From contig NZ_CANKXG010000003.1 in the NCBI RefSeq assembly GCF_947487575.1, positions 124,001-188,000 of the forward strand: DNA of 64,000 nucleotides, written 5' to 3'. The position numbers and the translations under genes are program-made. Shown piece by piece: positions 29,190 through 59,990 of the stretch (position 1 is the first letter of the stretch; each line of letters starts with the position of its first letter). The notes below the pieces were generated by a model, which made no database searches, was not told the origin of the DNA, and worked only from the letters and a program-made list of their open reading frames with translations. The stretch is from an uncultured Algibacter sp. GTDB taxonomy: Bacteria > Bacteroidota > Bacteroidia > Flavobacteriales > Flavobacteriaceae.

Positions 29190-29206
29190 ATCCTGTAATA
29201 TCATGT
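29190..29206 (-). promoter_or_regulatory. Operator-like direct repeat upstream of the GH78-GH59-GH106 block
   Basis: Halves are ATCCTGT (29190-29196) and ATCATGT (29200-29206), 10 bp start to start. It lies 88 bp upstream of the GH78 start at 29101 and about 105 bp upstream of the divergent regulator start. It matches the copies at 32209, 34115, 37731, 39217, 52275 and 59974. Confidence 0.5.
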
Positions 29207-29224
29207 ACCAAATAAAGTAAAAGT

Positions 29225-29254
29225 TTTGTCATAAAAGTTAGTGTGATAAATTTC
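29225..29254 (+). promoter_or_regulatory. Possible Bacteroidetes-type promoter for the AraC regulator
   Basis: TTTG at 29225-29228 and TAAATTTC at 29247-29254 approximate the Bacteroidetes -33 TTTG / -7 TAnnTTTG pattern with an 18-bp gap. It is followed after about 57 bp by the regulator start codon at 29312. The -7 element differs from consensus at its last base, so this is tentative. Confidence 0.3.
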
Positions 29255-29311
29255 GACATTATTAATGCTTATATCAATTAACAATTTGATATATTAGTAG
29301 CACAAAATGAT

Positions 29312-30196
29312 ATGAAAAATACCTATAGAAAATATCTTATTACCTCAAAAAAAGATAAATTATGGGGATTTTATGTGAATAATTTAGGACGAAATGTTAT
29401 AAAAAAATATGAAAATTATCCTTCTATGGATCATCCAGATCAATATATTTTTACTTGGGATAAAGGACGTATTTTAAATGAATTTCATCTAGTATTTATC
29501 ACTAAAGGCGAAGGTGTTTTTGAAAGCAACGCTACTGGAAAAATAAAAGTTTCTGATGGTGATGTGTTTTTATTATTCCCTGATGTTTGGCATCGTTATA
29601 AACCCAAAAAAAGTACAGGTTGGACAGAGCGGTGGGTTGGGTTTTCTGGAGCTATTGCAAATCAGTTTTTATCCAATGGTTTTTTCAACCCAGATGAACC
29701 TATTATTTCAAAATGTAACAAACCTCAAATACTAAATCATTTTAACACACTGTTTAAATTGTTTGACGAAACCACTTATGGATATCAACATTTAGCTTCT
29801 GGCATTTGTATACAGTTAATGGCAGAACTACATAATATAAAAAGTGGGGGTAGCAATTTAGACGATTTAAATTCTATGATATCTCATGCAAAAGGCATTA
29901 TGTATAAAAACATAAATAGTTCTATTAATCTTATTGAGATAGCTTCAAATTTAGGCATTAGTTATTCTAAATTTCGAATAGACTTCAAGAAACAAACAGG
30001 GGTTTCTCCATTACAATATCATTTGCTCTTAAAAATTGAAAAGTCTAAAGAATTATTACTAAACTCTAATAAGTCTCAAAAAGAAATTGCTTTCGAACTC
30101 GGTTTTGAATCTGATGTGTATTACAATAGATTGTTTAAAAGAAAAACTGGATTAGCACCTGGTCAATTTAGAAATATAAGCAAGGACATCTTGTGA
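29312..30196 (+). CDS. AraC-family transcriptional regulator
   Basis: This is the only plus-strand gene. The 294-residue protein has an N-terminal cupin-like sugar-sensing domain (about 45-175; DGDVFLLFPDVWHRYKP is the conserved end of its first half) and a C-terminal HTH_18 domain with two helix-turn-helices. The motif IEIASNLGISYSKFR lies in the first, and QKEIAFELGFESDVYYNRLF followed by FKRKTGLAPGQFR in the second. There is no signal peptide or membrane segment, so it is cytoplasmic. It is divergent from the GH78-led operon and convergent with the 30242 gene. It most likely responds to a released sugar such as rhamnose, or a breakdown product, and controls the rhamnosidase block. The ligand is an inference from context only. 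Confidence 0.93.
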   Translation: MKNTYRKYLITSKKDKLWGFYVNNLGRNVIKKYENYPSMDHPDQYIFTWDKGRILNEFHLVFITKGEGVFESNATGKIKVSDGDVFLLFPDVWHRYKPKKSTGWTERWVGFSGAIANQFLSNGFFNPDEPIISKCNKPQILNHFNTLFKLFDETTYGYQHLASGICIQLMAELHNIKSGGSNLDDLNSMISHAKGIMYKNINSSINLIEIASNLGISYSKFRIDFKKQTGVSPLQYHLLLKIEKSKELLLNSNKSQKEIAFELGFESDVYYNRLFKRKTGLAPGQFRNISKDIL

Positions 30197-30200
30197 TAAA

Positions 30201-30241: not shown

Positions 30242-32158
30242 TTAGCTTATTGTTATTGTAAGCTCAATAGTTTTATTATCCTCCTCAAAAAACACTTCTA
30301 GGGGTAATGCCTCGACTCCAGGCACCATATTAAAAGTTCTTTTTCCTGAAATTTCTTTAGTTCTAATGGGCGCATTTGCTTTAATCGTTACTAATCCTTC
30401 CGGTTTTTGAATGGTAATTTCGTTTTCACTAATATTTGTTACAACTTCGCTTGAAGGCGAAACAATTGGTAATACAAAAGCAGTTTGCTCTATAATATCT
30501 TGCTCTGTACTTACTTTAATTTCTGTTTTATCAGCAGCACACTTGTAAGCAATATTAAATGTAGAAGCCGTTTCTGTAACTTCTTCTCTATTTACATTTT
30601 TTATTTTTGTATCTGCTAATAATTCAATCGTTCCATTTTCGTCTTTAGAAGTCACTGTTGCTGGTAAATCGTATAAATTTGTATACCAAACATCATCTTT
30701 AAACACCTCAACTCTTGGTGTTAAACAGATATCTTTATTAGGTTGTACTTGTTGATTATTTTTTTCAACTAAAGCATATTCTGCCATACTTGCTGCACAT
30801 AAAAGCCCAACTTTATTGTGATATAAAACCCCTAAAGTTCCTCCTGAAGCCTGACGATAATCGTACTTATAATGATATTCTGCATCGTAAGCACTTACGG
30901 TTCCTCTCCAATCGCCTCTTGCAAATAGGAAGACATCCAAATCTTTAAAATGTTTTACACCATCTGCAGTTGTTCTTGGCAGATTAGCATTTGTATTGAT
31001 TTCTGGTAAATGACCCCAATGATCTAACAATGCTGCTAAAGGCTTTGCATGTGTAAATGTATGGTGCACACAAGGTGGAATGCCTGCTTCAATAAAACCA
31101 GGGCCTCCATGTATTAGCCCATTGGCAGTGCAACGCTGCAATAATTCTGTATTTTTTACCGCTGCTGTTCCAAACGCAGGATTGATATGAGACATCATTC
31201 CAAATGCCGGTTGGCTACCATCACAGGTTCTACTGCCCCAATAGCTCCATTTGTACATTCTATTACCCCAGCTATTATCCCAGCCACCATCTGGTAACAT
31301 AAACTCTAAATGGCTATTTAAGGATTTTGTTAAGATCTGTAAAAGCTCTTCATCTTTTTCCTTAAGGGCGTACATGACTAAGCTGTTTAGCGTTTCTTCT
31401 ACGTTATACCCCAAGTCCACACCATGCAATCCTTTTTCACTAAGCTTACTGGAGCTCTTTTTACACTCCCCAAATAATAAGCCTTCATTTGCAGTAAAAT
31501 ATGATTTTACTTGAGACGCTAATGTTTTACTCTTAGCTTTAAAATCGTCTCTATTTAAAACATTACCTATTAAATTTAAACCGTAAACTGCTGTCCCTGG
31601 ATAATTTATATTGGTAAAATCTATTGTAAACTCTTTATAAATATAATTTCCAGCTTTTTCTAAACGTTTTGTCCAAGCCTGTTTTGTTGTTTTATCTAAA
31701 ACATGACCATGATAATGTAAAGCTTCTGCCAAAGCTATCGCTCCAAAAACGGTAATTCCTTTCCAAGATTTTGGGTTTGTAATTACTGTCCATGAACCAT
31801 CCTTTTGAGAAACATTATTTTCTGCCCAAGTCATTACCAATTTAGCACCTTCTATATACTTTTCATCGCCAGTTTTATCTGCCATATATAAAAACGGATA
31901 TACCGCGTCCATACAGCGCCCGTGAATATGAGAACAAGATGGACAGCCTAAAGCGCCATGTTCATCTAAATTAGATGGATTGTTAATTTGTACTTTTAAC
32001 ATCCCATCACTCCAATCTTTTAACAAACCTGTAATTAAGTTTTTAAACTCTAAAGAATGTTCTGAGTGGCTTTCGCATGCATTTAGCAATCCTGCCATTG
32101 GAAGAGAGATTCCTATTCCTGCGAGGGTTGATAGTTGTATAAAGTTGCGTCTTTTCAT
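30242..32158 (-). CDS. Tat-exported toroid/beta-sandwich protein, putative polysaccharide lyase
   Basis: The N-terminus MKRRNFIQLSTLAGIG is a twin-arginine signal, with a possible lipobox Cys in LLNACESH. Residues of about 40-400 look like an (alpha/alpha) toroid: repeated helical segments with aromatic/His-rich motifs such as GCPSCSHIHGRC, DGGWDNSWGNRMYKWSYWGS and CVHHTFTHAKPLAALLDHWG. The C-terminal 230 residues are all-beta, with ARGDWRGTVSAYDAEYHYKY. This architecture fits heparinase II/III-like or other toroid-plus-sandwich polysaccharide lyases; I cannot assign a CAZy family. A PL40-type ulvan lyase is one possibility. Neighbours (a PL28 lyase upstream, and GH105) support a uronate-polymer substrate. 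It has its own operator-like repeat 50 bp upstream. Confidence 0.75.
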   Translation of the reverse strand: MKRRNFIQLSTLAGIGISLPMAGLLNACESHSEHSLEFKNLITGLLKDWSDGMLKVQINNPSNLDEHGALGCPSCSHIHGRCMDAVYPFLYMADKTGDEKYIEGAKLVMTWAENNVSQKDGSWTVITNPKSWKGITVFGAIALAEALHYHGHVLDKTTKQAWTKRLEKAGNYIYKEFTIDFTNINYPGTAVYGLNLIGNVLNRDDFKAKSKTLASQVKSYFTANEGLLFGECKKSSSKLSEKGLHGVDLGYNVEETLNSLVMYALKEKDEELLQILTKSLNSHLEFMLPDGGWDNSWGNRMYKWSYWGSRTCDGSQPAFGMMSHINPAFGTAAVKNTELLQRCTANGLIHGGPGFIEAGIPPCVHHTFTHAKPLAALLDHWGHLPEINTNANLPRTTADGVKHFKDLDVFLFARGDWRGTVSAYDAEYHYKYDYRQASGGTLGVLYHNKVGLLCAASMAEYALVEKNNQQVQPNKDICLTPRVEVFKDDVWYTNLYDLPATVTSKDENGTIELLADTKIKNVNREEVTETASTFNIAYKCAADKTEIKVSTEQDIIEQTAFVLPIVSPSSEVVTNISENEITIQKPEGLVTIKANAPIRTKEISGKRTFNMVPGVEALPLEVFFEEDNKTIELTITIS

Positions 32159-32208
32159 TTTTATTATATTAAATCATCGGAAAACTATTAAAATGTTATT
32201 TAAAAACC

Positions 32209-32225
32209 GTCCTGTTTTATCCTGA
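32209..32225 (-). promoter_or_regulatory. Operator-like direct repeat
   Basis: Halves are GTCCTGT (32209-32215) and ATCCTGA (32219-32225), 10 bp start to start, 50 bp upstream of the start codon of the Tat-exported lyase candidate. This is one of the two best copies in the window. Confidence 0.6.
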
Positions 32226-32506: not shown

Positions 32507-34057
32507 TTATTGTATTACAAGCTTTGTAGTGTAAGTTTTATTATCGTTTGTAGTAGCTTTTATGAGATACATACCTGATGTAAATGCCTTATTATTTATT
32601 TCTAACTTTTGATTGTTTGTTTTGTTTTCGTAAACCAATTCACCAAGTATACTGTAAATTTTAACGTTAACAGCATCTAAATTTTTAAACGCTAAAGTAA
32701 AATCGCCATTTGTTGGATTTGAATATACTTTTAATGCACTATTTTTCAACTCTTCAACAGAAACACTTAAAGCTCTTTTCAAAATAACTTCCCATACACT
32801 TCTATTATCAGTTTCTGAAGCCCAAATATGTGTTACGTTTCCATTTACTTCATGATATAAGTACCTAGCACTACTAGATTCAAATCTAAAAGTATCATTA
32901 GATTCATTGTAATGTATCGTCCAAATTTTATCGCTAGTACTTTCTGGCGAATCTCTTTCCGTACTTAAAACAACATAAGGTCCTCCTGGACCACCTGAAC
33001 CTGGAGCTCGCAGTATTCCAAAAGTTTCACTATCAATATTAAAAAAAGCTCCACTATTAACAAAAGTCCAATGCGTATTTTGTGCTTCATCTGAATCACT
33101 CATGGTAACTGGTGTCGCAGCTAACCCTACATCGGTTAAGAATTCCCCAGTAGCTACATTTCTTAAACTGTAAACTGCTTTCGTTAAATCTGGATCGTCG
33201 CTTACAACAGGTTCCCCTTCTACTTCTTCCATCTGGTACGTTGTATTTGCCCATCTAATTTGAGCTCTACCGCCTTTAACTCTGTATGCACCATATCTAA
33301 CACCTGATTGTATGCCTCTTTCTGGTTCTGGAATGTTCCAATTAAAAACTTGCCCACCTATAACAGCATCGGCATAATGTATTTTTTTTGAAGGATTATT
33401 AGGGTTTTCTCTAAAACCTACCTCTAGTTCAATATCAGTAGGTACATTTTTAGCTATATTGGTTAAAAAAGCGAATTCTCTTTGTCCTTCTCGATTAACA
33501 ATTTGCTCTCTAAAAATATCAAAAGACACCTGTACATTACTATTAGCACCTGAACCATATATTGGTAGCGCCAAATACAAACAAATAGCAGGATCTGGAG
33601 AACCTCCACCGCCAGTATGCTTCCCTTTGGCTTGCATGATATAACTACCATCTCGACTAAGAGAACCATCAACGCTACCAACTTCAAGTATTCTAACGGT
33701 TCCTGTAAATCTTGCATAACTCCCCACACCTGTTGTTTGAGACCTAGGTAATGAACGCTCTATTCTAGGCTGTAAAGATTCCGGAAAATGGTTTGAACCA
33801 ACTGTTATATTGTATACCCCCCAAGTATTATCATAAACATTACTTTCTGAGTAATCTGAGTAGCAACTTCTATCATCAATAGTCCCTACATTTACAGGGT
33901 TTGGCAAGTCTGATGATGTCCTAGTAGCATTTCGGAATTCATCTGAACAAGCAATACTTGAATCTGTATCTTCATCAGGCGCCGTTTGGGCTGTTAAAAA
34001 AAGAGAGAACAGTGCAAAACTGTAAAATAATAGGTGTTTAAAAGTGTTTTTTTTCAT
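32507..34057 (-). CDS. PL28-type ulvan lyase with ricin-like module and T9SS sorting domain
   Basis: A signal peptide (LFSLFLTAQ) precedes the mature start [20 protein letters not shown]. Residues of about 25-275 match what I recall of PL28 ulvan lyases such as the Nonlabens enzyme: [51 protein letters not shown] and [22 protein letters not shown]28 enzymes cleave ulvan by beta-elimination between rhamnose-3-sulfate and uronic acid. Residues of about 285-430 form a ricin/beta-trefoil-like module ([28 protein letters not shown]) that may bind glycan. The last 75 residues are a type IX sorting domain ([13 protein letters not shown] to YTTKLVIQ), so the enzyme is secreted or surface-attached. 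It is an endo-acting starter enzyme for the locus. Confidence 0.88.
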
Positions 34058-34114
34058 AGCTATGACTTAAGATAATCGTTTTTTTGAAAATTATAAAATC
34101 ATAAGGAAAAACCA

Positions 34115-34131
34115 ATCCTAAACTATCCTAA
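34115..34131 (-). promoter_or_regulatory. Operator-like direct repeat
   Basis: Perfect direct repeat ATCCTAA (34115-34121) and ATCCTAA (34125-34131), 10 bp start to start, 57 bp upstream of the PL28-type lyase start codon. Confidence 0.55.
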
Positions 34132-34216: not shown

Positions 34217-37200
34217 TTAATTGATAGACCTTAAAACCACTGGACCAATTAAGCCTGATTTATCAAGATTTTTTTCATTTTTTTTAGGAGGGTTTGTCGT
34301 CCAAGTCTTTTTTTCTGCTTTAGGGCGAGAATTATCAAAAATAAGCTGATTACGCCACGTATTGGTAACTTTAATTTCCAACTGATTTTCTCCAACTTTC
34401 ACTAAATTAGAAATATCAAACTCGAAAGGAGGCGCCCATTTTACACCAACTTTTTTACCATTACACCAAAGCTCTGTAATGTTTGCAACGTCACCCAAAT
34501 TTAAAATCGTGTGCTTTTTAATACTTTCTAAATTAAACACCTTGCTATATATTATAGTTCCCGAATAATGTTTTACTGCATCATTATCCAATTGAGTAAG
34601 CGATTTTAATTCTGAAACTTCAATTATTTCTGGTGTATCCCAACCATTTTCAAAAGATAATTTCCAGTTGTTTTGAAGTGATTTTTCTTCAATACTAACC
34701 ACGCTTTTAATTTCTTTTCCTTTTTGATAAAATACATATTCACCAGAATTTGAAGCTATATAATCATCTTCTTTCCAAGATAATTTTGAATAATCTTCTA
34801 AATCATGAATGTTATACCATCCTGTTTTAGAATCTAAAACAATTTTATTATTACAAGTTACTTTTGATGCATAAGGGGTTTTATTTCCCTTGGGAAACAC
34901 TACAATTGTACTTCCACTTGGTGGAAAAGATAAAGCTACATTTGTTCTATCATTTGATGCATTCCAAATTTTAGCATCTTGTTGTTCGCCATTAAAAGCA
35001 TTCCATATTTGCGGATAGACATTATTTAGCCTAAAACTTAAAGTAGCGTCAACCGGTTTATTGTGATTTGAAGCTATAAAATAAATATGAGCATCTGTTG
35101 TTTCTCGATGAATCCATTTTATATTTAATTCATCTGGAACTATAACATCTTGTTCAATACGTTCTGCTTTTAAAACGTCATCAAGTGTTTTTCCCCAATA
35201 TACCTTTCCCTTACCAACTTGTTTTACACCCTCGATCGTATTTGCCCATAATTCATCTGCTATTTGAGATAATTCTTTTAAATCATTTTCATCATCCATT
35301 AAACTTGGAGAGTCTTGAGGTTTATCTCCAAGAATTACTGCACCTGCCAAAACCAATTCTTTTAGTTTTTTAGCTGTAGATAACAACATGTCTTTTGAAT
35401 CTCTGAGTGTAATCACCCTATAATTTCCAGCGTCTTCAACATGAATTTCCCCGTTTACGATACTCAACTTATCTTGTAATATTTCCGCATTTAAATAATC
35501 AAAACGATAGCCTTTTGGGAAATAATCTAAATCGAAAGGCGGTCTTTCAAAATTATCACCATAATACCGCAATACATCAGCAACGTATTCACCTTGTTGT
35601 AAAATATATTGATTTCGTGCCAAGTAATCCGTCCAATCTTTCATGTAAGGCCACCATGTTTGTTTGCGTACCAATGGAAAACCTATATTGCCACCAAAAC
35701 TAGACCCAGGAAATACATTGGTTTGAGGTGTATGCGAAAATGTGTGAAATACTAAATGATTAATACCCTTGGTAAAATTATAATCTATTAAATATTTTAA
35801 TGTAAATGGATGCTCATTCCACTGCACTCCTAATTGTGTTCCCGCCTCGGCAGCCAACATCGGTTTATTGTACAAATGTGTTGCAGATGCAGCATTAAAA
35901 ACAGGTTTAGCATATTCATTTTGAGCAGAAGGTGCTTTAGGATACCAAAACTCGGTCATTGGTATATCGCTAACACCATAATATCTCATTGGGTCTATTG
36001 GTAAGACTTCACCTCCAGCCCCTTCTGTATAAACATCTGCTCCCATCTCATTTGCAACAGTTGCAAAATGCTTAAAGAAATTATCTATAAATACCTCATC
36101 CATGGTATGGCGTAAATCTCTTAAAAATTTAGTTGTTATCTCAGGACTTTGAACAATGTAACCCATAGTTGCAGGCAAATAGGTTTTCATGCTATATCCT
36201 CTTCTACTTTCAAATTCAGCGAACATATCTTCTGAATTCATGGTCCAAGTGGGTACATGACTTTCCCAACTATCAATCAATAAGCCATGTAACTTTCCAT
36301 CTCCTATAGGACCTCCATCTTTAATTAAATTACCAATCATCCCATTTCTCAAGTGATTTTCAATTGCAACTTTATCTAATTTACTAGATTCCCAACCAGT
36401 AGCTTCGGGAACTGCTGGTTTGTTTGTTAATCGCATGTTTACATGCCCAAAACGCACCACTGTCCAATTGCCTTTAGGTGCTTCCCAAGTTAACTTACCC
36501 TCAGCATCCATTTTATCGGTAAGATTAATAATGGCATTCGATTTAATGAAGGTGTTTTCGGCATAATCATACTTTACATCATTTTGTAAACGCCTTAGTA
36601 CTTTAGCCGCTTTAGCCTCATGATTATGAAACTTAGGTTTTGGACTTAAACGAATAAATTCTGGAGCAATAGTATGTTGGCCTTCAAAAGTAAACTTAAA
36701 AGTATTTGAAGTGGTTTCTGGTATAGCAAGCGTAAGATGTTTTCTCCTATCATTCCAGTTAGCATCAGGCAATTTTACGGTTGCTATTGTAGTTAATTTA
36801 TCATTAATAAAAGCTTCCACTTTAATAGCTATATTTACTTGAGGGTATTCTGTTCCCATTATCATATGACGCGTTTGAGGAAACATAATAGAACGTAAAG
36901 TAACTGCCTCTTTAAACATAGTTTTAACCCAAGAATTTGTTTCATTAACTTTTGAAATACCTTGATTTCTGTATGATTTTAAGGGTTTAACTAATTGCGT
37001 AGTTTTACGAGTTACTATAATTTTTGAATTGGGGTTAAATATATCTTCCCATGGAACCAAAGGATTATTCGTTTCTATTTCAAATGGATTAAAAGGTTCA
37101 ATGTCATCGCCTTCTGGTGTTGGAAAAGCTAATACTTGGATATCTTTATAATTATAATCTGGTGTATGATATAATGAGTCTAACTGAAGAATTTCCTCAA

Positions 37201-37675
37201 AGAGTTTTCCACCCTTTATTCTATAAACGGTTTCCACCATTTCACGCTGCGCCTCTTCTACTGGTACCCAAGGACCTCCAGTCATAGACCAGCCTGGGCA
37301 ATTTTGCATCGTAAATTTTAAGCTTAAACGTCTGCATTCATCAGCCGCATGACGAATCATATCTTCCCATTCGTGGGATAAGATTTTAATTGGTTTTACA
37401 TTTGGAAAAGGACGTCCTGACTTATTAAATAAATGTATACCTTGAAGTCCTGCTTCTTTTATAGCCTCCAAATCAAGGGTTAAACCCTCTTTAGAAATGT
37501 TGTTTCCGTTTATGTGAAACCATGTTTCTGGACGGAATTGTTTAGACGGAGCTGTAAAACCATTAGCTAATTGTTTTAAACTAATTGTTGACTTCTTTTT
37601 TTCGACCGGAGACTTACACTGTATAAATGATAATTGTACAAATAACGCTAGTGTTAAAAAAAATTGAAACCTCAT
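34217..37675 (-). CDS. Divergent GH106 alpha-L-rhamnosidase lipoprotein
   Basis: This 1152-residue protein has a lipobox VQLSFIQC. GH106 landmarks are SKQFRPETWFHINGNNISKE, MQNCPGWSMTGGPWVPVEEA, LIDSWESHVPTW, FHTFSHTPQTNVFPG and a C-terminal LWCNGKKVGVKWAPPFEFD. It differs from the other five GH106 proteins at several conserved spots: WFHINGN replaces WWW/WFW, DSWESHVPTW replaces DSYExGxxNW, and AAEAGTQLGVQW replaces AESFTS. It also lies apart from them, between the PL28 lyase and the sorting-domain proteins, and has its own operator-like repeat. It may act on sulfated or differently linked rhamnose in ulvan oligomers, which is inference. Confidence 0.9.
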   Translation of the reverse strand: MRFQFFLTLALFVQLSFIQCKSPVEKKKSTISLKQLANGFTAPSKQFRPETWFHINGNNISKEGLTLDLEAIKEAGLQGIHLFNKSGRPFPNVKPIKILSHEWEDMIRHAADECRRLSLKFTMQNCPGWSMTGGPWVPVEEAQREMVETVYRIKGGKLFEEILQLDSLYHTPDYNYKDIQVLAFPTPEGDDIEPFNPFEIETNNPLVPWEDIFNPNSKIIVTRKTTQLVKPLKSYRNQGISKVNETNSWVKTMFKEAVTLRSIMFPQTRHMIMGTEYPQVNIAIKVEAFINDKLTTIATVKLPDANWNDRRKHLTLAIPETTSNTFKFTFEGQHTIAPEFIRLSPKPKFHNHEAKAAKVLRRLQNDVKYDYAENTFIKSNAIINLTDKMDAEGKLTWEAPKGNWTVVRFGHVNMRLTNKPAVPEATGWESSKLDKVAIENHLRNGMIGNLIKDGGPIGDGKLHGLLIDSWESHVPTWTMNSEDMFAEFESRRGYSMKTYLPATMGYIVQSPEITTKFLRDLRHTMDEVFIDNFFKHFATVANEMGADVYTEGAGGEVLPIDPMRYYGVSDIPMTEFWYPKAPSAQNEYAKPVFNAASATHLYNKPMLAAEAGTQLGVQWNEHPFTLKYLIDYNFTKGINHLVFHTFSHTPQTNVFPGSSFGGNIGFPLVRKQTWWPYMKDWTDYLARNQYILQQGEYVADVLRYYGDNFERPPFDLDYFPKGYRFDYLNAEILQDKLSIVNGEIHVEDAGNYRVITLRDSKDMLLSTAKKLKELVLAGAVILGDKPQDSPSLMDDENDLKELSQIADELWANTIEGVKQVGKGKVYWGKTLDDVLKAERIEQDVIVPDELNIKWIHRETTDAHIYFIASNHNKPVDATLSFRLNNVYPQIWNAFNGEQQDAKIWNASNDRTNVALSFPPSGSTIVVFPKGNKTPYASKVTCNNKIVLDSKTGWYNIHDLEDYSKLSWKEDDYIASNSGEYVFYQKGKEIKSVVSIEEKSLQNNWKLSFENGWDTPEIIEVSELKSLTQLDNDAVKHYSGTIIYSKVFNLESIKKHTILNLGDVANITELWCNGKKVGVKWAPPFEFDISNLVKVGENQLEIKVTNTWRNQLIFDNSRPKAEKKTWTTNPPKKNEKNLDKSGLIGPVVLRSIN

Positions 37676-37730
37676 CTTTTATATAGTTTTAAAAAATTTA
37701 CTAAATAAAAAGAAATATTAACAAAAAAGC

Positions 37731-37747
37731 ATCCTGCACACTCTTGT
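37731..37747 (-). promoter_or_regulatory. Operator-like direct repeat
   Basis: Halves are ATCCTGC (37731-37737) and CTCTTGT (37741-37747), 10 bp start to start, 55 bp upstream of the divergent GH106 start codon. The second half is less conserved. Confidence 0.45.
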
Positions 37748-38274: not shown

Positions 38275-39159
38275 TTATTGCTTTACTATTTTCTTAGTAA
38301 AACTTCCTGAATCACTTGAAATTTTTACAAGATACATTCCACTTGTTAAAGTATTAACATCAACCTTAATAGATTCTGAATTTACTGTTCTACTTAATAC
38401 TTCTTGACCTAGTAATGAATATACAGATATTTGTTTAATATTAGAAGGAAGACCTTTAATAGTTAATTCATCATTTACAGGGTTTGAAACAAATATTGAA
38501 CTTGCATCAAAGTCTGGAGTGCTTAATAGAGATATAAGATGGAACTGTATAACATCAATACCTCCGCCATCAAACGTCACAACATCACCTGCTGCAGCTG
38601 GAATTACACCATACCTTGAATTAGTACCTAGTGTATTTTGTAGAAAAAGTGCATTATTATTTGGATTTCCAGGTGGATTAGCCCCAGCAGGATCAGCAAG
38701 CCCTTCTGCATTAACTTTAGCTTTTCTTCTTTGAAACTGATCTAGACCAGAACGATCACCAGAATAGGTAATCGGATCTGTTGTATCATCGTATGCTACA
38801 CTTACCGGATTACCAGGTCTAGCTATAAGCGTTTGACTTGGATGCGCTGAGTCGTCAGCTGTAGCCATGGTAACGGGTCCTAAACCAGTAATGTTTCCCG
38901 TAATTTCCATCAATCCCGCAGAAGCAGGGGTCCTATGGCCTTGTATAGTCCAAAGTTGTGTTTCATCATCAGGTGTTATTTCTGGCTGCCATACTATAGC
39001 ACCAGTAGAAAGGTCAACTGTCATGTAAAGATTTGGTGTTAAACCTGATGTTGAAATTTTATAAATACCATCGCCTGTAAAATTTGCCTGTGCTTGCACT
39101 TGAAACGCAAACATAGTAAATAATAAAAATGCACTAATTTTTAAAGTAATTTTTTTCAT
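38275..39159 (-). CDS. Secreted ricin-like protein with T9SS sorting domain
   Basis: The 294-residue protein has a signal peptide ending FAFQVQAQ. A ricin-like, non-catalytic region covers about residues 25-215 (GDGIYKISTSGLTPNLYMTV, ETQLWTIQGHR), and a type IX sorting domain forms the last 80 residues (SSIFVSNPVNDELTIKGLPS to FTKKIVKQ). The linker FDASSIFVSNPV is nearly the same as in the 39799 and 41541 proteins, so the three are related. No catalytic motif is visible. It probably binds glycan at the cell surface or in the medium. A strong terminator follows, and an operator-like repeat lies 57 bp upstream of the start. Confidence 0.8.
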   Translation of the reverse strand: MKKITLKISAFLLFTMFAFQVQAQANFTGDGIYKISTSGLTPNLYMTVDLSTGAIVWQPEITPDDETQLWTIQGHRTPASAGLMEITGNITGLGPVTMATADDSAHPSQTLIARPGNPVSVAYDDTTDPITYSGDRSGLDQFQRRKAKVNAEGLADPAGANPPGNPNNNALFLQNTLGTNSRYGVIPAAAGDVVTFDGGGIDVIQFHLISLLSTPDFDASSIFVSNPVNDELTIKGLPSNIKQISVYSLLGQEVLSRTVNSESIKVDVNTLTSGMYLVKISSDSGSFTKKIVKQ

Positions 39160-39216
39160 AATTTTAGTTTTATATTAATTAATACTACAATATAGTAACT
39201 TTTAGTTATTTATAGT

Positions 39217-39233
39217 ATCCTGTACTAACCTGC
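39217..39233 (-). promoter_or_regulatory. Operator-like direct repeat
   Basis: Halves are ATCCTGT (39217-39223) and AACCTGC (39227-39233), 10 bp start to start, 57 bp upstream of the 38275 gene's start codon. Confidence 0.55.
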
Positions 39234-39608: not shown

Positions 39609-39625
39609 ATTCTGCAATTTACTGA
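39609..39625 (-). promoter_or_regulatory. Orphan, degenerate copy of the direct repeat
   Basis: Halves are ATTCTGC (39609-39615) and TTACTGA (39619-39625), 10 bp start to start. It is about 450 bp upstream of the nearest minus-strand start codon. Confidence 0.25.
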
Positions 39626-39702
39626 ATACTAGATGAATTACATAAAAATCGGATTCTGATATGGAATAAAAGCTAAAATTAGTTTTCTAAATTTGAAGTA
39701 TC

Positions 39703-42311: not shown

Positions 42312-42477
42312 AATCTTAAATAGTTTTAATTAGTAAATTTTTATGGTATAAAATTACTAGAAAAGAAGGGTGTAGAACTCCTAAAAAAGTGGACAAAACT
42401 CCTTTTTTAAGGCTTTGATGGAGGTGCTCATTCTAATAAAATAGCACAATGAGTAAAAAACTATGAATTAAAGGCTA

Positions 42478-45400
42478 CTAGTATTCGATAAAAGATTCTG
42501 AATACGCTTTAGGAGTTTTACCAAACTTACTTTTAAAGATGCGACTGAAATATTTAGAGTCCTTAAAGCCAACCTTAAGGCTAATTTGACCAATATTAAT
42601 TTTACCTTGCTCAAGAAGAAGAGCAGCACGTTTTAGCCTTATGTGCTGAATAAATTGTTTGGGTGTAAAATCTGTCCAAGCTTTTACTTTAGTAAATAAT
42701 ACGGATTTGCTTACACCTAATTCTTCGCAAAAATAGGGAATATCGAAATTTGAATTGCTTATGTTTTTTTCAATTATATCTAACGCTTTCTTGTAGAGTT
42801 TTTCATCTAGAGAAGACATTACAAGATCCTCTGGCTGTAAAACTTCATTGGCATTCATTTTTTGTTTTAATCTAGAAATAGATTTTAAAACATTTGATAT
42901 CCTTAATTCAAACTCTTTTATATTAAATGGTTTGCTAATATAATCGTCTGCACCACGCTCTAATCCTTCTAATTTATAGATTAAGGAAGACCGAGTGGTT
43001 AATAAAATCACTGGAATATGGCTGGTTCTTATATCTCCCTTAACTAATGCACATAATTCTATCCCACTAGTTATGGGCATAACCACATCACTTACAATAA
43101 GGTCTATTTCTTCTTTAATTGCTATTTTAAATCCTTCCTTTCCATTTTCAGCTTCGTAAACATTATAATTAAACTCGAGTAGATTACGCATAAAACCTCG
43201 TAGTTGTTTATTATCTTCAACTACTAAAATTGAAGATTTTTCGACTGAAGGAATATTTTTAAAGATAGTGGTATCATCAAAACTTAAATCTTGCTCTTTT
43301 AACTGATTTTCATATAATGAAATATCTTCACTGAACTTGAAGTTTTTAACAATATCATTATCATTTAAGTGCCCTTTCCCTTTTAAAAGTTCTACCGAAA
43401 AAATAGAACCAGAGGTTTTAGTAGAGTTAGCAACACTTATTTTACCTTTATGTAAATCTATTATACTTTTAACTATCGACAAACCAATTCCAGTACCTTT
43501 ATTATTGTTTTTGCTATCCTTAAGATCAGAAATATCAAAAAACCGTTCAAAAATTTTATCAACATATTCTTCTGGAACCCCAACACCTGTGTCGCTGACC
43601 GATACAACTACTTTATCTATATCTTCAATAATTTCAATATTTATTTCTCCTTGATCTGGTGTATATTTAAATGCATTAGAAATTAAATTATAAAACACCC
43701 TTTCTAACTTAGCGCTATCATAGTACAAATTGATATTATCTGATGATTTTGCAAAATTATATTTATAATCTTTAGCCTTAGCATACTCAGAAAATGACAA
43801 GCATATTTCTTCAATAAACTTTACGATATTTCCTTCTGAAGCTTCTAGTTTCATCAATTTATTCTCATACTTTCGAAAATCCATCAATCTATTGATAAGC
43901 TGCAATAATTGATTTGAGCTACTTTCAACAACTTTTAGTTTTCTGTACATCTGACTACTCCCTCTATAATTTTCTAATATTTGTTGAAGTGGCCCTAGAA
44001 TAAGCGTTAATGGTGTTCGAAATTCATGAGATATATTTGTAAAAAACTCTAGTTTAGACTTATTTATTTTTTCAATTTGTTCCGTTTTTACATGCTCTAA
44101 TTCTAATTGATGCTTAAGCTTAGTTTTTGTTTTTAAAGTATTAAATAGATAATACACGACAATGCAAATAGCTACAAGATATAAAGTGTAAGCCCACCAA
44201 CTTGCCCATGGTGCCGGATTTACATGTATTTGTAATGCTGTTGGGGTTTGATTTACCACACCATCACTATTAATGCCTTTAACTTCAAAAGTATAGCTCC
44301 CAGGTTTTTGGATTGTGTAAGTTGCTGTGTTATTAGAAGTCATGACCCAATCTGTTTCTAAACCTTTTAAACGGTACATGTAGCTGTTACTGCCTGCATT
44401 AATAAAATTAGGGATTGCATAGGATAAACTAAAATTTCCTTGATTGTATTCTAATTCTAGGTACTTTGTATGAGAAATTGTATTTTCAAGAAGTTGATGT
44501 TTACCATCTACCTCAACAGAGGCATTTTGTAATTTGAAGTCTGTAATAATTACCTGTGGGGAATATTTGTTTTTAGTTAACTTACTTTCATCAAAATATG
44601 TTACTCCAAAGGAACCGCCAAAATAATACTGTGTTTTACCAATACGCAAACTGGCGTCTCGATTAAACTGGTTACTAGCAAGCCCCTCCTTTTTAGAATA
44701 ATAAGCTTCAATCTCATCTTCAAGAGGGTTGTATTTTAAAATACCTTGTGTAAAGGTACTAATCCAGAACTTACCTTTTTCAGCTTCCTCAATACTTCGT
44801 ATACCGTTAATTTCAACCTTATCTATTTTCAAAGAAACAGGTTCAAATTGATTATTTTCAAATTTAAAGAGTCCATCCTCGAACGTTCCAATCCACAACA
44901 CTCCTTTGTTATCTTCAAAAATGGTATTTATTTCAAACTTAACTTTCAAATCCGCTTTATATACATGATTTGTAATTTCCTCATTTGGCGAAATACAGTT
45001 TAACCCCCTTATTGTGCCAACCCAAATATTATTTTTTGAATCTACTTTTATTGTTTTAACATTGTTACTTGTAAGCCCAATAGGCTTAGAATTAGTGTTA
45101 TATATCTTAAATATATTTTGGCGTGTATTATACTTAACCAAACCTTTATAGTTAGTACCAATTAGGATGTTATCATTATCATATTGTATAATAGACAACA
45201 CACCTACATTTTCTAAAAAATCAATTAGTTTTTTAGAAAAAGGTAATTTTTCAAACGCCTTTTTTTTAAGGTTGTATATGGCTATACTGTTAGTAAAAGT
45301 ACCAACCCAAAGTTTATCATCATTGGTAACACAAAGCGATTTAATATTATCACTTTTAAGCGCTGATGAATTTTTAGTGGTAATATGTTGTATAGCATTT

Positions 45401-46521
45401 GTGTCTTGATTTAAAACAGAAATCCCACCACCCTCAGTACCAAAAAAAAGTAAGTTATTGTAATTTACAATTGAACTAACTACCTTAAAACTAAGACCTG
45501 ATTTTGAGGATTTTTGACTAATATTAATAAAGTTCTTATTAAAATCATTCCAAATATTAATACCTCCATAATAAGTACCAATCCATATTACACCTGTATT
45601 ATCTTTAAATAAGGTTTTGATGAAATTATCATTTATAGATTTATCATCATTATATAATGCGATTAAATCATTTTGATTATTTGATATTTGGAGTCCATTA
45701 TAAGTAGCAATCCACAGTTCTCCATTATCATCAAAAAGTAATTTTCTAACATTTTTATTTTTGTCTTTTATTAGAGACTTCTCAAAGTAAGATTGAATAT
45801 TATTTTTGGAAATATCATACTTTAAAACACTATTCATTTGGGTTCCAAGCAATATATTCCCCCCAGCAGTTTCTACCATATCCTGAACAAATAATGATTC
45901 TGTACCAATAATATTTTCAAATTGATAATTACCGTTTTCTTTATCTGACAACCTTAACAACCCCTTTGTTGTCCCAATTAACAGAATACCAGATTTCGTT
46001 TCAAGAATAGAAGTTATATTATTCTTTTTTAAAATTGTATAAAACTTATCTGTTTTATTATTGTAGATAGAAACTCCGCTTGAAGACACTATCCAAATTT
46101 CATGATTAGATATTTCTTTAATTACTTTAATCATATTATTTCCTAAAAACCTTGCTTTGTCATTTAAAAAATATGTTTTAAAAGCATTTTTTTTAGGGTT
46201 ATATCTATTCAATCCAAAAGATGTACCCACCCAGATAAACCCACGACTATCACCTTCTATACAAAGCACTCCATTGTTACTAATGGATGATTTATTATCT
46301 TTTTGGTGTCTATAAACCGTAAATTCTTCACCATCATATTTATTTAAACCATCTCTAGTTCCAAACCATATTTGACCTAATCTATCTTGATGAATAGCCA
46401 CCACCGAATTTTGAGACAACCCATCAACATCAGTTATATGACTAAACTTATACATGTCGTTTTGAGCTGAAACAAAGCGCATGAATAGAAAAATAAATAT
46501 AACAGTGAACGATTTAGGCAT
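42478..46521 (-). CDS. Hybrid two-component system sensor/regulator (HTCS)
   Basis: The first ATG is at 46521; a TTG three codons upstream is less likely. The order is: signal peptide (to about 20), periplasmic two-component propeller of about 24-690 with repeated IWxGTxxGLxxY units (QIWFGTRDGLNKYDG, VLWIGTFEDGLFKF), Y_Y_Y domain (about 690-770), and one membrane helix (YTLYLVAICIVVYYLF, about 790). Next come HisKA with His832 in SHEFRTPL, HATPase with NLISNAFKYTP, DTGVGVP and GTGIGLS, a receiver with phospho-acceptor Asp1145 in VSDVVMP, and a C-terminal HTH_18 AraC-type domain. HTCS proteins sense PUL oligosaccharides in the periplasm and switch on their locus. This is the best candidate for binding the direct repeats in the window. 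Confidence 0.96.
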   Translation of the reverse strand: MPKSFTVIFIFLFMRFVSAQNDMYKFSHITDVDGLSQNSVVAIHQDRLGQIWFGTRDGLNKYDGEEFTVYRHQKDNKSSISNNGVLCIEGDSRGFIWVGTSFGLNRYNPKKNAFKTYFLNDKARFLGNNMIKVIKEISNHEIWIVSSSGVSIYNNKTDKFYTILKKNNITSILETKSGILLIGTTKGLLRLSDKENGNYQFENIIGTESLFVQDMVETAGGNILLGTQMNSVLKYDISKNNIQSYFEKSLIKDKNKNVRKLLFDDNGELWIATYNGLQISNNQNDLIALYNDDKSINDNFIKTLFKDNTGVIWIGTYYGGINIWNDFNKNFINISQKSSKSGLSFKVVSSIVNYNNLLFFGTEGGGISVLNQDTNAIQHITTKNSSALKSDNIKSLCVTNDDKLWVGTFTNSIAIYNLKKKAFEKLPFSKKLIDFLENVGVLSIIQYDNDNILIGTNYKGLVKYNTRQNIFKIYNTNSKPIGLTSNNVKTIKVDSKNNIWVGTIRGLNCISPNEEITNHVYKADLKVKFEINTIFEDNKGVLWIGTFEDGLFKFENNQFEPVSLKIDKVEINGIRSIEEAEKGKFWISTFTQGILKYNPLEDEIEAYYSKKEGLASNQFNRDASLRIGKTQYYFGGSFGVTYFDESKLTKNKYSPQVIITDFKLQNASVEVDGKHQLLENTISHTKYLELEYNQGNFSLSYAIPNFINAGSNSYMYRLKGLETDWVMTSNNTATYTIQKPGSYTFEVKGINSDGVVNQTPTALQIHVNPAPWASWWAYTLYLVAICIVVYYLFNTLKTKTKLKHQLELEHVKTEQIEKINKSKLEFFTNISHEFRTPLTLILGPLQQILENYRGSSQMYRKLKVVESSSNQLLQLINRLMDFRKYENKLMKLEASEGNIVKFIEEICLSFSEYAKAKDYKYNFAKSSDNINLYYDSAKLERVFYNLISNAFKYTPDQGEINIEIIEDIDKVVVSVSDTGVGVPEEYVDKIFERFFDISDLKDSKNNNKGTGIGLSIVKSIIDLHKGKISVANSTKTSGSIFSVELLKGKGHLNDNDIVKNFKFSEDISLYENQLKEQDLSFDDTTIFKNIPSVEKSSILVVEDNKQLRGFMRNLLEFNYNVYEAENGKEGFKIAIKEEIDLIVSDVVMPITSGIELCALVKGDIRTSHIPVILLTTRSSLIYKLEGLERGADDYISKPFNIKEFELRISNVLKSISRLKQKMNANEVLQPEDLVMSSLDEKLYKKALDIIEKNISNSNFDIPYFCEELGVSKSVLFTKVKAWTDFTPKQFIQHIRLKRAALLLEQGKINIGQISLKVGFKDSKYFSRIFKSKFGKTPKAYSESFIEY

Positions 46522-46564
46522 CTTTATCAATAAAGCATTTAATTATTTAAAATTGATTTAATAT

Positions 46565-51416: not shown

Positions 51417-52196
51417 TTATTTACATGTTATTTCGCTGAAGTTAGCAACTTTGGCCTGTTCTAGTGTTCTATCTGTTTTAAATAGTACAAATTGATCTAT
51501 AGCATGCGACCTTGAACGCCCAGAAATTTCAACATCGTAAGTTCCTGCATTATCAAATGTTACAAAAACATCATACGGATCATTATCATTTGTAGATGAT
51601 CTCCAAAACCATTCTCCCAATCTATTCATATATATTTTAAACCATCCATCTTTACTAGACCCTTCTGGGTTTGGTGTTTTCCCTGAACCTCTTGGATATA
51701 CGCGTAGCCCAGTATTTAACTTCTCTCCGTAAAAATCATCTCCTTTAATTCTTAACCAAGAGTCATTATGTTCTGTATTACTATTGCCTGTGGTTATTCT
51801 AGAGTTCCAAACAAATTGATAAGTTCCAGGTGTATTTATTTTTATAGAGAACTTAATTAATCCTTGCCCCGGATTATTAAAATTATCTGCCCCAGTCCAA
51901 ACTAAATATCCATCGCCTTTAAAGCCTGCCAAAGCCCTAGTTATTGTCCAGCCATTGGCTGTAGCGCTAGGGTTTTCAATATCTACACGAACAAGACCAT
52001 CTTTCTCAATAAATAATTTACCAGATACACAGGTATCAACTTGCTCTACTTCTTCTTCCTCCTCTTCATCTTCTTCTTTATCCGTTTCCATTATTTCTTC
52101 GGACTCATCATTTGAATTATTTGAACAGGAACTAGCGATAGCAGTTAAGTTAAAACATAAAATAAAAATTAATATATTACTCTTGGATTTTTTCAT
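51417..52196 (-). CDS. Surface lipoprotein with acidic linker and beta-sandwich domain, function unassigned
   Basis: The ATG at 52196 is chosen because it begins the lipoprotein signal (KSKSNILIFILCFNLTAIA, lipobox ASSC). The in-frame candidate upstream at 52241 is a TTG. An unusual stretch with nine consecutive acidic residues (KEEDEEEEEEVEQVD) links the anchor to a mature domain of about 200 residues. That domain has TPGTYQFVWNSRITTGNS, NRLGEWFWRSSTNDNDPYDV and GTYDVEISGRSRSHAIDQFV, a pattern common in marine Bacteroidetes carbohydrate-binding or PUL-associated sandwich proteins. No named family is certain. It is the first gene of the GH43-GH3-GH105 operon and has an operator-like repeat 78 bp upstream. 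Confidence 0.8.
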   Translation of the reverse strand: MKKSKSNILIFILCFNLTAIASSCSNNSNDESEEIMETDKEEDEEEEEEVEQVDTCVSGKLFIEKDGLVRVDIENPSATANGWTITRALAGFKGDGYLVWTGADNFNNPGQGLIKFSIKINTPGTYQFVWNSRITTGNSNTEHNDSWLRIKGDDFYGEKLNTGLRVYPRGSGKTPNPEGSSKDGWFKIYMNRLGEWFWRSSTNDNDPYDVFVTFDNAGTYDVEISGRSRSHAIDQFVLFKTDRTLEQAKVANFSEITCK

Positions 52197-52274
52197 TTTC
52201 ACTACTTTGCTTTCTAATGTAAATTCAATAAAATTTTTCAATGTTTAAATATAAAATATGATTACTTGACACCT

Positions 52275-52291
52275 ATCCTGTACTATGCCGA
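52275..52291 (-). promoter_or_regulatory. Operator-like direct repeat
   Basis: Halves are ATCCTGT (52275-52281) and ATGCCGA (52285-52291), 10 bp start to start, upstream of the lipoprotein-GH43-GH3-GH105 operon. The distance to the ATG at 52196 is 78 bp. Confidence 0.5.
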
Positions 52292-56303: not shown

Positions 56304-56341
56304 TACAAAAAAGCCAGTAAAATAAACAATTTACTGGCTTT
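56304..56341 (-). terminator. Hairpin terminator after the sulfatase-GH78 gene
   Basis: AAGCCAGTAAA (56311-56321) pairs perfectly with TTTACTGGCTT (56330-56340) across an 8-nt loop. The minus strand continues into a T-run (A-run at 56307-56310). It ends the transcript of the 56363 gene, so the 54198 lyase needs its own promoter in the short space that remains. Confidence 0.9.
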
Positions 56342-56362
56342 AAAATATTTTTATACTCTTTT

Positions 56363-59300
56363 CTAAAAGGAATTTATTTTTAACTGAATAACATGTTTAC
56401 CAGGTTCTAGCCTTATAGAATCAAAAGCTGAAGGTACTTTCTTTCCATTATGAATTAAGTCTTTTCCATTTAAACCGTTCAAAGAAAATTCAGCAACCAT
56501 ATTACCAGGAATTTCGATTTCATAAGTTTGAAGTCTTGCTCCATTATAGGTGTATTTCCCTTTTATTGCCCCCCTTACAGTAGGTACTTCTATAGTACTT
56601 GATTTCAATTTACTCATCTGTGGTTTAATAGTTGCAACGCCAAAACCAGGTGTTTTTGGCTTGATACCCCATAACCCCCTTGGAATTACGTTTGCCGGTA
56701 CAGCTCCCCATGCATGATTCCAATCTAGATTATTCTTGTATTTTAAATCCCAAGCTTCTAACGTAATCGTTGAGCCACTTCTAATCATATTATACCAACT
56801 TCTTTCTGCTTTACTTTCCATAAGTTCTAAGGCATAGTCTGCTTCTCCTGCATTGTATAAGCCATCCATTAAAAATTGGGCACCATAAACACTACAAGCC
56901 AAACCTCTAGACTTTACATAATCTACAACAGATTGGTAATGCTCTTCTGGAACCAATCCAAAGGCTAAAGGCATCATATTAGCGTGTAAGGAAGCATGAT
57001 CTGTTCCAATACCATCAACATAAATACCACGTTCTACATCAAACATTTGTTCATTAACTGCTTTTTTAGCTTTAATTGCTCTTAGTTCAAAATCTAAAAC
57101 CTCTTGAGTTTTACCTAAAATTTTTGCAAATTCTGCCATAATTTTCATGTTCTCATAGAAAAATGAATTAATTACAGTACTATATGGTTTAAAAACAAAT
57201 CCATCACGTTCACCTTTAGTTTTACTACCATTAAAATTAGCAGAAGGCCAATCCACAATATCAGTTAACGGTTTTTTATAGCCGTCTTGAAAGCCAAGTT
57301 TACGCATAAACTCTTGGTCTACTTTAGTTGATGTGATTAACCCATGCTCATTAGATAGTTCAAAAAGTGTTTTGTATTTCAAAGGTTCGTAATAACGTTC
57401 AATAAGCTCAATATTACCTGTATACATATAATCAGCATAAATCAATAACGCCACATGCTGTTGCCATTCAGTAGGCCATGTTGGGTTTTTCATGAAATAC
57501 TCAATGGTACGTCTTGCCATTGCAAACTCTCTATCTGTTGTGTAGTGACTTAATTGATTTAAATAAGCATCAGCCTCATAAGGAATACGCTCTCTATCAC
57601 CATCAACATATAAGCCGTTAAATGTTGTTGCCTTAATCGAATATTTACATAAATCCCAAACTTGGTTTAAAATATCATTGTTACTTGTAAAACCACTCGC
57701 ATTGTCATCCCAATAAGTGCGGAATGCTAACTGCTCAAAATTTTCAGAAGTAAGCGTTCCTTGAGCTCCTTCTACTTCAGCATATCTAAATGGAACTAAT
57801 GGAGGGAATCCGTCTGGCAAAGGAATGGCTTTATTAGCTCTTGTATTTCTCTCGTTTTCTTGTACTTTAATTTGATATTTAGTTTGGCCTGGTTTTACAT
57901 TAACTTTAATCTCTTGGTATCGAATATTACTTTTCTTTGGTGGTGTTCTATTAACATTACCTTTATTATCAACCATTTCGCTTACCCTTACTGTTAAAGT
58001 ATGTGGCGTTTTTGCTTCATAAGTAAAATCCATTGTAGCAAATGCTGCCTTACCAAAATCCATGAAATAAAAATCTCCTCGGTTTTCAAACTTAACTGGC
58101 TTTATTCTATCAATTTCAAATTTATTTTCGGTTGAAATAATATAACTATCACTTTTTCCAGTTGTGAATTTTTGTGCTTCAGAATAATCTACAAGTCTGT
58201 TTTCTTGCTCCCATATTCTAACTTTCCAAAAGTATGCTTTTCCAATTTCCAAAGGATTACCTGCATACTCAACATCTGTTGATTTTGTAGAAGCTACTCT
58301 CCCACTATCCCAAACATTTCCATTATTTGCATCGATACTTTTTTGATTTGAAGCCACTAAAATTTGATACGCCCCTTGAAATTTAGAACCTAAAGGCACT
58401 GTCCAACCAAATTCTGGTTTTAAATCGAATATTTTTACATCAGTACTTGGCTCTCGAATAAGTTCAACGGTTAAATCTGTTGGTGCTGCTCTATATTCGT
58501 TGCTATTCTTTTTAATTAATTCATCAAGCTTTATGCGTAATTTATTAGCTACTTCTTTGTACTTTTTCTTTCCTATTAAATTTTTAATTTCTTGAGGATC
58601 TTTTTCTAAATCATAAAGTTCTTCAATAGATTTATCATTAACATACCTGAAATACTTCCACTTTTTTGTACGCACACCTTCACTTGGTGGAATATGTTTA
58701 AAATCCCAAATGTGTTCAATCAAAATAGTGTCTCTAGCTATTGTATTTGTTTCCTTTTTAACAATAGGCATCAAGCTTTTACCTTGCCATGTATCTGGGG
58801 CTTTAACACCTGCTATATCTGCAATGGTTTGCGGAACATCAATGTTTAGCACCATATCATCAACATCCTGATGCTGATTTATTCTAGGGTCAAATACAAT
58901 TAATGGCACACGTATAGAATTATCATACATTAACCATTTTCCAGCAAATTGACGTTCTCCTAAAAAGTAGCCATTATCCCCCATTACAATGATTACGGTG
59001 TTTTTATCAACCCCTTTTGCTTTTAGTTTTTTACGTATTTTTTTGATTTCCAAATCTACTCCAGAAATCATTCTGTAATAACCTTTTAAACTATGCTGAT
59101 ATTTTTCAGGGGTATCATAACGCCATGTCCAACGCAATCTATTAAACCCATCTCTTACAATTTTTGGTTGCGCATCAAAATACTTATCATCTCCTAATTC
59201 TGGCTCAGGAATAGTTGTACTTTCCAACATTTGGTCCATTTCAGATTGCCAGAAATATTGCTTTGGAGCTCCATCATGGGCATGTGGTGCACTAAAACTT

Positions 59301-59896
59301 AATGACAAACAAAACGGCTCATCGTTAGAAGCATTAGCGTCTATAAAATCTAGAGCTTTTTGTCCTGTATATCTTGTTAAGTGAACCGTATCATTATCAA
59401 TAGTTTTATAGTAATATCCTCTTCTATCTTTATAACGGTTATTTCTGTCGTAAGATTCGTATTCATCAAATTGTTTATCTAAATCGTTATAGCGCACTCC
59501 ATATTTTCCAAAGAAACCAGTATAATATCCATTATCTTTAAGTAATCTTGGATAAGAGTTTGCCATATATTCTTCCCGTACATTACCTGTTTGAAAATTA
59601 AAATTATGTGCACGCTCATGTAACCCCGTTAAGATACTAGCTCTACTTGCAGCACAAATAGGAGTAGTAACTATTGCTGTGTTGAAATACGTTCCTGATT
59701 TAGCCAAATCATCCATTTGTGGAGTTTCTACAAATTGATTTCCTGCATAACCAATGGCATCAAAACGCTGATCATCAGTTAATATGAAAATAATATTTGG
59801 TTTTTCACCGTTGTTAGCCTGTTTAGCTTGTCCGGAAATTTTGTTAAAACATACTAGCATCGAAATAATGGCTAGTAAAAAGCAGTTCTTTTGCAT
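56363..59896 (-). CDS. Sulfatase (S1)-GH78 rhamnosidase fusion
   Basis: Residues 1-22 are a signal peptide. Residues of about 30-470 are an S1 formylglycine sulfatase: metal site DDQ (41-43), formylglycine Cys81 in [11 protein letters not shown], and [17 protein letters not shown]. Residues of about 480-590 are the GH78-type Fn3-like domain ([20 protein letters not shown]). The GH78 barrel follows, with acid motif [14 protein letters not shown] (Glu769). The fusion would remove sulfate from, and then release, terminal rhamnose. It resembles the sulfatase S1_25-GH78 enzyme known from the Formosa agariphila ulvan locus; that link is from memory. It has no lipobox. A repeat lies 77 bp upstream and a terminator follows. 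Confidence 0.93.
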
Positions 59897-59973
59897 AAAA
59901 ATAGTCTTAGTTTAATGGATAATTTTAATAAAATCTATAGCCTATAAATTTATTTATTTTTTAGCCAAAAGCT

Positions 59974-59990
59974 ATCCTGTTGTGTCCTGA
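59974..59990 (-). promoter_or_regulatory. Operator-like direct repeat
   Basis: Halves are ATCCTGT (59974-59980) and GTCCTGA (59984-59990), 10 bp start to start, 77 bp upstream of the sulfatase-GH78 start codon. With 32209 this is the best-conserved copy. Confidence 0.6.

Follow-up and report, generated by a model that had tools for sequence, protein, structure and literature searches.

Rhamnose regulons and an ulvan-degradation island

Published regulators of rhamnose use belong to the AraC, DeoR and LacI families and govern mostly local regulons, and the sites of the DeoR-type regulators are direct repeats with a period of 10-11 bp, in the part of the comparative account available to us (PMC3870299). 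The subject here is a direct repeat with a 10-bp spacing, built on the motif CAGGA, that recurs upstream of genes in a 64,000-nucleotide stretch of DNA from an uncultured Algibacter sp., hereafter the window (C3:124001-188000 of the 3.5-Mb source genome, G000; other G numbers denote comparison genomes and L numbers loci). The window is a portion of an ulvan-degradation island with a PL28 ulvan lyase, GH106 and GH78 rhamnosidases, GH88, GH3, GH43, a sulfatase-GH78 fusion and a hybrid two-component system (HTCS), some names of open reading frames (ORFs) in the island being our own presumptive assignments, made by eye. To judge from its sequence context, the repeat is most likely an on-switch that links ulvan degradation to L-rhamnose breakdown in marine bacteria. 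It is probably a rhamnose-regulon operator bound by RhaR, a GntR-family protein that has a LacI-like sensor, would act as an activator and is encoded outside the window, beside the L-rhamnose operon.

As in other L-rhamnose regulons (PMC3870299), the candidate regulator is encoded with the rha genes, with sites upstream of rha operons, and some of the regulons in the accessible sections of that source take in genes for rhamnose oligosaccharides, a trait shared here. Unlike those regulons, the one described here, under a GntR-family regulator, appears to comprise at least 29 sites, spread over 230 kb and in trans. Rhamnose regulons as such are already known; what appears to be new is the extension of a monosaccharide regulon to command a polysaccharide island.

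The operator of Bacillus subtilis AraR is palindromic, whereas the present motif is a 10-bp direct repeat and its binder an apparent activator rather than a repressor, so that the likeness between the two regulators is one of architecture only. Both combine a GntR winged helix with a GalR/LacI-like sensor, and direct-repeat operators are on record in the GntR family for FarR, NagQ and NanR, in the portion of PMC4494728 at hand. Direct repeats also control polysaccharide loci in the HTCS regulons of Bacteroides, where they have an average spacing of 21 bp in the excerpt available (PMC3878776); a second repeat in the window, at 42368-42402, fits that spacing, while the CAGGA motif, at 10 bp rather than the roughly 21 bp expected, does not follow the HTCS. 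In gene content the island resembles polysaccharide utilization locus H of Formosa agariphila, including a sulfatase-GH78 fusion similar to P36, and the available part of that account describes no regulator or operator (PMC8511951). The open-licence literature, searched by title and abstract opening, yielded no description of this motif or of a GntR rhamnose regulator in Flavobacteria, nor one of how ulvan degradation is regulated in marine Bacteroidota. If the present interpretation is correct, a single cytoplasmic rhamnose-type sensor would coordinate a very large ulvan regulon, and the motif would serve as a legible marker by which genes for rhamnose polysaccharides could be predicted in flavobacterial genomes, distant enzymes such as the two orphan PL28 lyases among them. 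Two control layers could then be told apart, one a master operator at the monosaccharide level and the other made up of local HTCS operators, and both would become testable.

The operator family and its promoter geometry

Seven sites lie in the window where a sequence-only reading had placed them, and all are intergenic, on the minus strand, and face a minus-strand ORF. As that reading had it, the halves are spaced by exactly 10 bp in all seven. The listed ORF starts lie 34-89 bp from the sites; the one at 52241 is a TTG codon, and an ATG follows 15 codons later. The direct repeat itself stood, but its length is 20 bp rather than 17 bp, and it is not confined to seven transcription units, as sites occur beyond the window too. 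The sites are as follows.

29187..29206, minus strand: operator site ACATGATATTACAGGATGAT, with a -7-like box TATATTTA at 29161-29168; upstream of 25832-29101 (GH78-type) and possibly of the whole minus-strand run down to 693
32206..32225, minus strand: operator site TCAGGATAAAACAGGACGGT, with a -7-like box TAGTTTTC at 32180-32187; upstream of 30242-32158
34112..34131, minus strand: weaker operator site TTAGGATAGTTTAGGATTGG, with a -7-like box TAATTTTC at 34086-34093; upstream of the PL28 ulvan lyase gene (32507..34057, minus strand)
37728..37747, minus strand: operator site ACAAGAGTGTGCAGGATGCT, the weakest by leave-one-out scoring, with only 4/6 of the -7 letters at +38; upstream of the GH106 gene 34217-37675
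39214..39233, minus strand: operator site GCAGGTTAGTACAGGATACT, with 3/6 of the -7 letters at the exact offset, which is no match; upstream of 38275-39159
52272..52291, minus strand: operator site TCGGCATAGTACAGGATAGG, with a -7-like box TATATTTA at 52246-52253; upstream of 51417-52241, then the GH43, GH3 and GH88 genes and possibly the HTCS gene
59971..59990, minus strand: operator site TCAGGACACAACAGGATAGC, with a -7-like box TAAATTTA at 59945-59952; upstream of the sulfatase-GH78 fusion 56363-59896

When each site was scored with itself left out, five of the seven exceeded every other position in the window; the site at 34115 was outscored by 3 positions and that at 37731 by 25, and both are weak taken alone. 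Downstream of the 29190 site, ten minus-strand ORFs (693-29101) follow one another with gaps of at most 138 bp and possibly form a single operon of about 28 kb.

A position weight matrix made from the seven sites revealed further intergenic sites along C3:9083-238635. Among 35 matches scoring at least 11.5 on C3:1-240000, 25 were accepted, including one at 84724 that a later ATG places upstream of its gene; excluded were nine within ORFs (the best at 16.7, higher than some accepted sites) and one intergenic match overlapping another. A sequence model from the 25 sites gave 27 matches at E<0.01 in G000. Of these, 23 had served for training and four were new, the latter lying before two PL28 lyases (C11 and C13), a Lut-like operon (C8) and a GntR gene (C3:238756). 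In all, the operator family numbers at least 29 sites, with 26 across 230 kb of C3 and the others in trans, before the two other PL28 lyases and the Lut-like operon. Among the products of genes behind the C3 sites are a RhaD-type rhamnulose-phosphate aldolase/dehydrogenase, a SusC-like receptor with an adjoining SusD, a rhamnosidase, GH5, GH39, sulfatases and an SDR that has a glucuronate isomerase gene among its downstream neighbours.

Strong matches were concentrated between genes. In six islands, 116 of the 122 matches scoring at least 15 were intergenic, though DNA outside called ORFs makes up only 5-6%; the possibility that the matrix would be equally common inside genes, which the sequence-only reading had set against itself, was not borne out, and its proposal of a common operator, with direct repeats one helical turn apart before functionally linked genes, is supported. 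The G000 island, source of the training sites, holds 24 of the 116, and the other 92 are outside training. Pooling of these intergenic matches, limited to scores of at least 15, gave as consensus a 20-bp tandem ACAGGATAGT-ACAGGATAGT with a 10-bp period. A consensus scan of G000 with up to three mismatches returned 51 matches, against 11 with the reversed pattern. Six of the 51 come from a single repetitive stretch (C7:181834-184100), in which six identical pattern matches spaced by 375 or 750 bp look like a tandem-repeat stretch, not an operator. The match at C12:74137, which agrees with the search consensus at every position and lies within an ORF, was counted as chance, and so was that at C4:257011.

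Three PL28 ulvan lyase genes were found in G000, and the operator lies upstream of all of them. Two are orphans outside the island (C11:10402-11160 and C13:83446-84192), and the neighbourhood of the C11 gene resembles that of the PL28 gene of G246. In the Lut-like operon on C8, the second gene exceeds the LutB/LldF cut-off and the first is a weak match. The operator stands before such a Lut-like lactate operon (L054:11769-14447; L122:10681; L136:5773) in both G000 and G134, and in G115 the lactate operon forms part of an operator-preceded run, the genes of the latter two genomes being ones that we take, by eye, to be Lut-like. Lactate is a product of rhamnose breakdown, and an operator before this operon fits with that.

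The -7 promoter element of Bacteroidetes is TAnnTTTG, with the -33 element about 20 bp upstream. In 68 of the 92 sites outside training, the distance from the site start to a TAnnTTTG box (at least 5/6 letters) is precisely 38 bp, and each of the remaining offsets between 30 and 49 accounts for at most 3 of the 92; because the matrix excluded that region, the box provides independent support. It is also present at +38 in 17/25 sites of G000 and in 5/7 of the window. The operator occupies the -33 position and an activator is therefore suggested; the geometry would be that expected when an activator takes the place of the -33 element, comparable with class II activators.

The candidate regulator RhaR

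RhaR (C3:10699-11745) and a paralogue (C3:9551-10597) are encoded about 112 kb from the window, where sites lie adjacent to them and to the rha operon; the closest RhaR relatives among named records are from Algibacter. The protein at C3:9551 has an N-terminal GntR winged helix (Pfam GntR, E=1.5e-11), and its sensor matches Peripla_BP_3 at E=1e-5, with 26.2 bits against a cut-off of 26.5. In the PDB, the DNA-binding domain of C3:10699 matches YvoA (1.7e-8) and the AraR DNA-binding domain 4egy (1e-7), and a predicted sensor model of the L194 orthologue (89%) resembles LacI/RbsR at E ~1e-11. The recognition-helix segment SRDTVEKAY is almost constant in 23 aligned RhaR orthologues, down to 51% identity. 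Of the rha enzymes, the aldolase exceeds the RhaD equivalog cut-off, the isomerase matches L-rhamnose isomerase models below the cut-off, and the kinase matches weakly.

Co-occurrence was assessed in 43 genomes, comprising G000 and 42 that were picked by HTCS/PL28 status before RhaR was considered and are not a random sample. Relatives of C3:10699 with at least 49% identity were found in 25 of them, the next best being 43%, and the cut was placed at this gap after the tables had been inspected. At least two motif matches were present in 24 of the 25 genomes with RhaR, the exception being G001 with one match, and in none of the 18 without it (Fisher p 3e-11, ignoring relatedness); the counts in the 42 genomes are lower bounds resulting from stricter filters, and that of G000 was taken at E<0.01. 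The rha aldolase is present in all 25 RhaR genomes and in G024, a control (aldolase 64%, best GntR 37%) with 0 motif matches. Among 57 RhaR loci from named records, 51 have a motif match at E<=0.05, and 39 of the 46 rhamnulose-phosphate aldolase genes in these loci have a site in the same orientation at most 400 bp upstream. When the rha region was read in ten genomes with 1-10 matches, a site preceded the aldolase in every one, and a GntR-family gene adjoined in seven.

In the proposed mechanism, RhaR would bind the 20-bp tandem of two ACAGGATAGT units and, at the -33 position, would touch RNA polymerase; it is probably an activator, because each site precedes a gene, mostly at one fixed distance from the -7 box. 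The effector is likely L-rhamnose or an early breakdown product. The ulvan programme of lyases, rhamnosidases, sulfatases, SusC/D systems and sugar-acid catabolism would in this way be turned on by a single monosaccharide sensor in the cytoplasm, with the two further PL28 lyases and the Lut-like lactate operon as targets in trans, and the two HTCSs of G000 would act locally, each via another operator adjoining its gene. The chances appear about even that Flavobacteriaceae use RhaR in general as a monosaccharide-sensing master activator that commands whole polysaccharide islands plus lactate use, each HTCS governing only an adjacent promoter. This role may possibly extend to a neighbouring family (Echinicola loci) and, in some species, to other loci with a rhamnose-mutarotase-like gene.

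Rival binders and a second operator

The sequence-only reading had named the AraC domain of the HTCS as the likely binder and an AraC regulator next to the first site as the alternative, and neither is supported; a regulator of the GntR family encoded elsewhere than in the window is a far better fit. The features concerned are:

42478..46530, minus strand: HTCS with domains Reg_prop, Y_Y_Y, HisKA, HATPase_c, Response_reg and HTH_18
42368..42402, minus strand: second operator GGAGTTTTGTCCAC-N7-GGAGTTCTACACCC, a 21-bp direct repeat assigned to the HTCS, with a -7-like box TAATTTTA at 42349-42356
29312..30196, plus strand: AraC-family regulator with an AraC_binding (cupin) sensor

In the DNA-binding domain, the window HTCS is 63% identical to a paralogue at C3:225157, and the values for further HTCS-like proteins from G000 are 29-37%. 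Relatives with at least 52% identity occur in 20 of 249 family genomes (the next best was 49% and the cut was placed at this gap after inspection of the tables, with up to 19 candidates scored per genome). PL28 was found in 14 family genomes, 11 of them with the HTCS and three, G045, G070 and G132, without it. No relative of the HTCS DNA-binding domain was detected at E<=1e-20 in these three, and among their 48 HTH_18 matches eight proteins of HTCS length (>900 aa) were compared and had 22-37% identity in the domain. They have, respectively, 15, 15 and 19 model matches, and 17, 22 and 27 intergenic matrix matches in their islands.

Binding of the motif by the AraC domain of either HTCS is very improbable in view of such patterns, even though the HTCS is encoded within the island, two neighbouring major grooves can be contacted by AraC domains, and at least two matches are present in 17 of the 20 HTCS genomes. 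G132 also has another HTCS adjoining its island, albeit one whose DNA-binding domain reaches only 31-33% identity. Within the RhaR genomes, at least two matches were found in 17/17 with the HTCS and 7/8 without, so that the HTCS makes no difference, and within those lacking RhaR in 0/3 and 0/15, respectively. Matches number 1-19 in the eight RhaR genomes that lack the HTCS, and 1, 0 and 1 in the three with the HTCS and without RhaR (G010, G242 and G246). The HTCS was rejected on this dissociation and on the separate operator beside HTCS genes. The AraC regulator at 29312-30196 was likewise rejected by its distribution, and it is barely credible as the binder: it is encoded in the island next to a site, and all 12 genomes that carry it have at least three matches, but these are only 12 of the 43, and orthologues are missing from six motif-rich genomes (G045, G070, G115, G228, G229 and G011, with 15, 15, 10, 10, 9 and 7 matches).

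The separate operator is a conserved 21/22-bp direct repeat. Of 14 regions that separate an HTCS gene from its neighbour, 11 contain it, that of the window included, and it fits the spacing of Bacteroides HTCS motifs as given in the accessible part of PMC3878776. It was not cleanly visible in a simple self-repeat scan of these regions, and was revealed by a motif sampler, which on ten regions reached 26.0 bits against 16.9 +/- 0.4, maximum 17.9, for 30 resampled sets at equal effort. Each of the ten sites was recovered when its own region was left out, and in 9/10 a -7 box stands at a single fixed offset. Outside the sampler run were G242, a near copy of G010 that has the repeat, and G129, G011 and G002, which are without it. 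Across C3:1-240000 the resulting matrix has two intergenic matches, one next to each HTCS gene (at window 42368-42402 and at C3:225082, both of them training sites), and 7 further matches of at least 12, all within ORFs. Window 42368-42402 is likely the HTCS operator, as judged from its sequence and position.

Other readings concern a different companion of the rha operon, or a different sign of action. That the motif is bound by an unrecognised regulator which always accompanies the rha operon, with RhaR a bystander or acting elsewhere, is unlikely; all 25 RhaR genomes also have the aldolase, so the two are inseparable there, and GntR regulators usually bind palindromes, but no other recurring family was noticed beside the sites when the ORF lists were looked over by eye (this was not a transcription-factor survey), and in G024 the aldolase occurs with neither RhaR nor the motif. 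There is a minor but real chance that RhaR, still the binder, is a repressor that keeps the promoter blocked as long as rhamnose is absent. Repression is the usual mode of GntR/LacI-type sugar regulators, and the site overlaps the RNA polymerase position; the single fixed spacing (68/92 at +38) and the orientation toward the gene, by contrast, are expected of an activator and unnecessary for a repressor.

Several observations weigh against activation by RhaR or against its assignment to every site. Sites of GntR-family regulators are typically palindromes, and a direct-repeat activator site is unusual; binding by RhaR, its effector and the sign of its action are what we infer from sequence comparison. 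The recognition-helix core SRDTV is common to both RhaR paralogues and to two further GntR paralogues of the island (C3:212835 and C3:238756), so that some sites could be theirs and assignment site by site is ambiguous. The -7 box at +38 is missing from 8/25 sites of G000 and from 24/92 of the others. Five genomes without RhaR have one match (G246, and G010, G019, G025 and G248 at E<=0.02), and that of G246 lies upstream of its PL28 gene. There was no match in 6 of the 57 RhaR loci (L140, L158, L180, L186, L191 and L196), and 7 of the 46 aldolase genes have no near site, four of them having one about 1.1 kb upstream. Because the genomes are related by descent, p-values are overstated and only indicative. 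The co-occurrence fits any factor that always travels with the rha operon; G024 alone separates operon from regulator. For G129, G011 and G002, the HTCS-neighbouring gene carries a CAGGA site in place of the 21/22-bp repeat, which also counts in favour of the HTCS as binder.

Two further features of the island were seen. The AraC regulator of the window (29312-30196) is 100% identical over 294 aa to a protein of another genus (G152:C1:441999-442880), where the rha aldolase is 96% identical, and these identities suggest that the ulvan island was laterally transferred recently. At 38275-42311, three adjacent proteins have in common a type IX secretion system sorting tail and a repeated 63-nt stretch, which looks like a local duplication.

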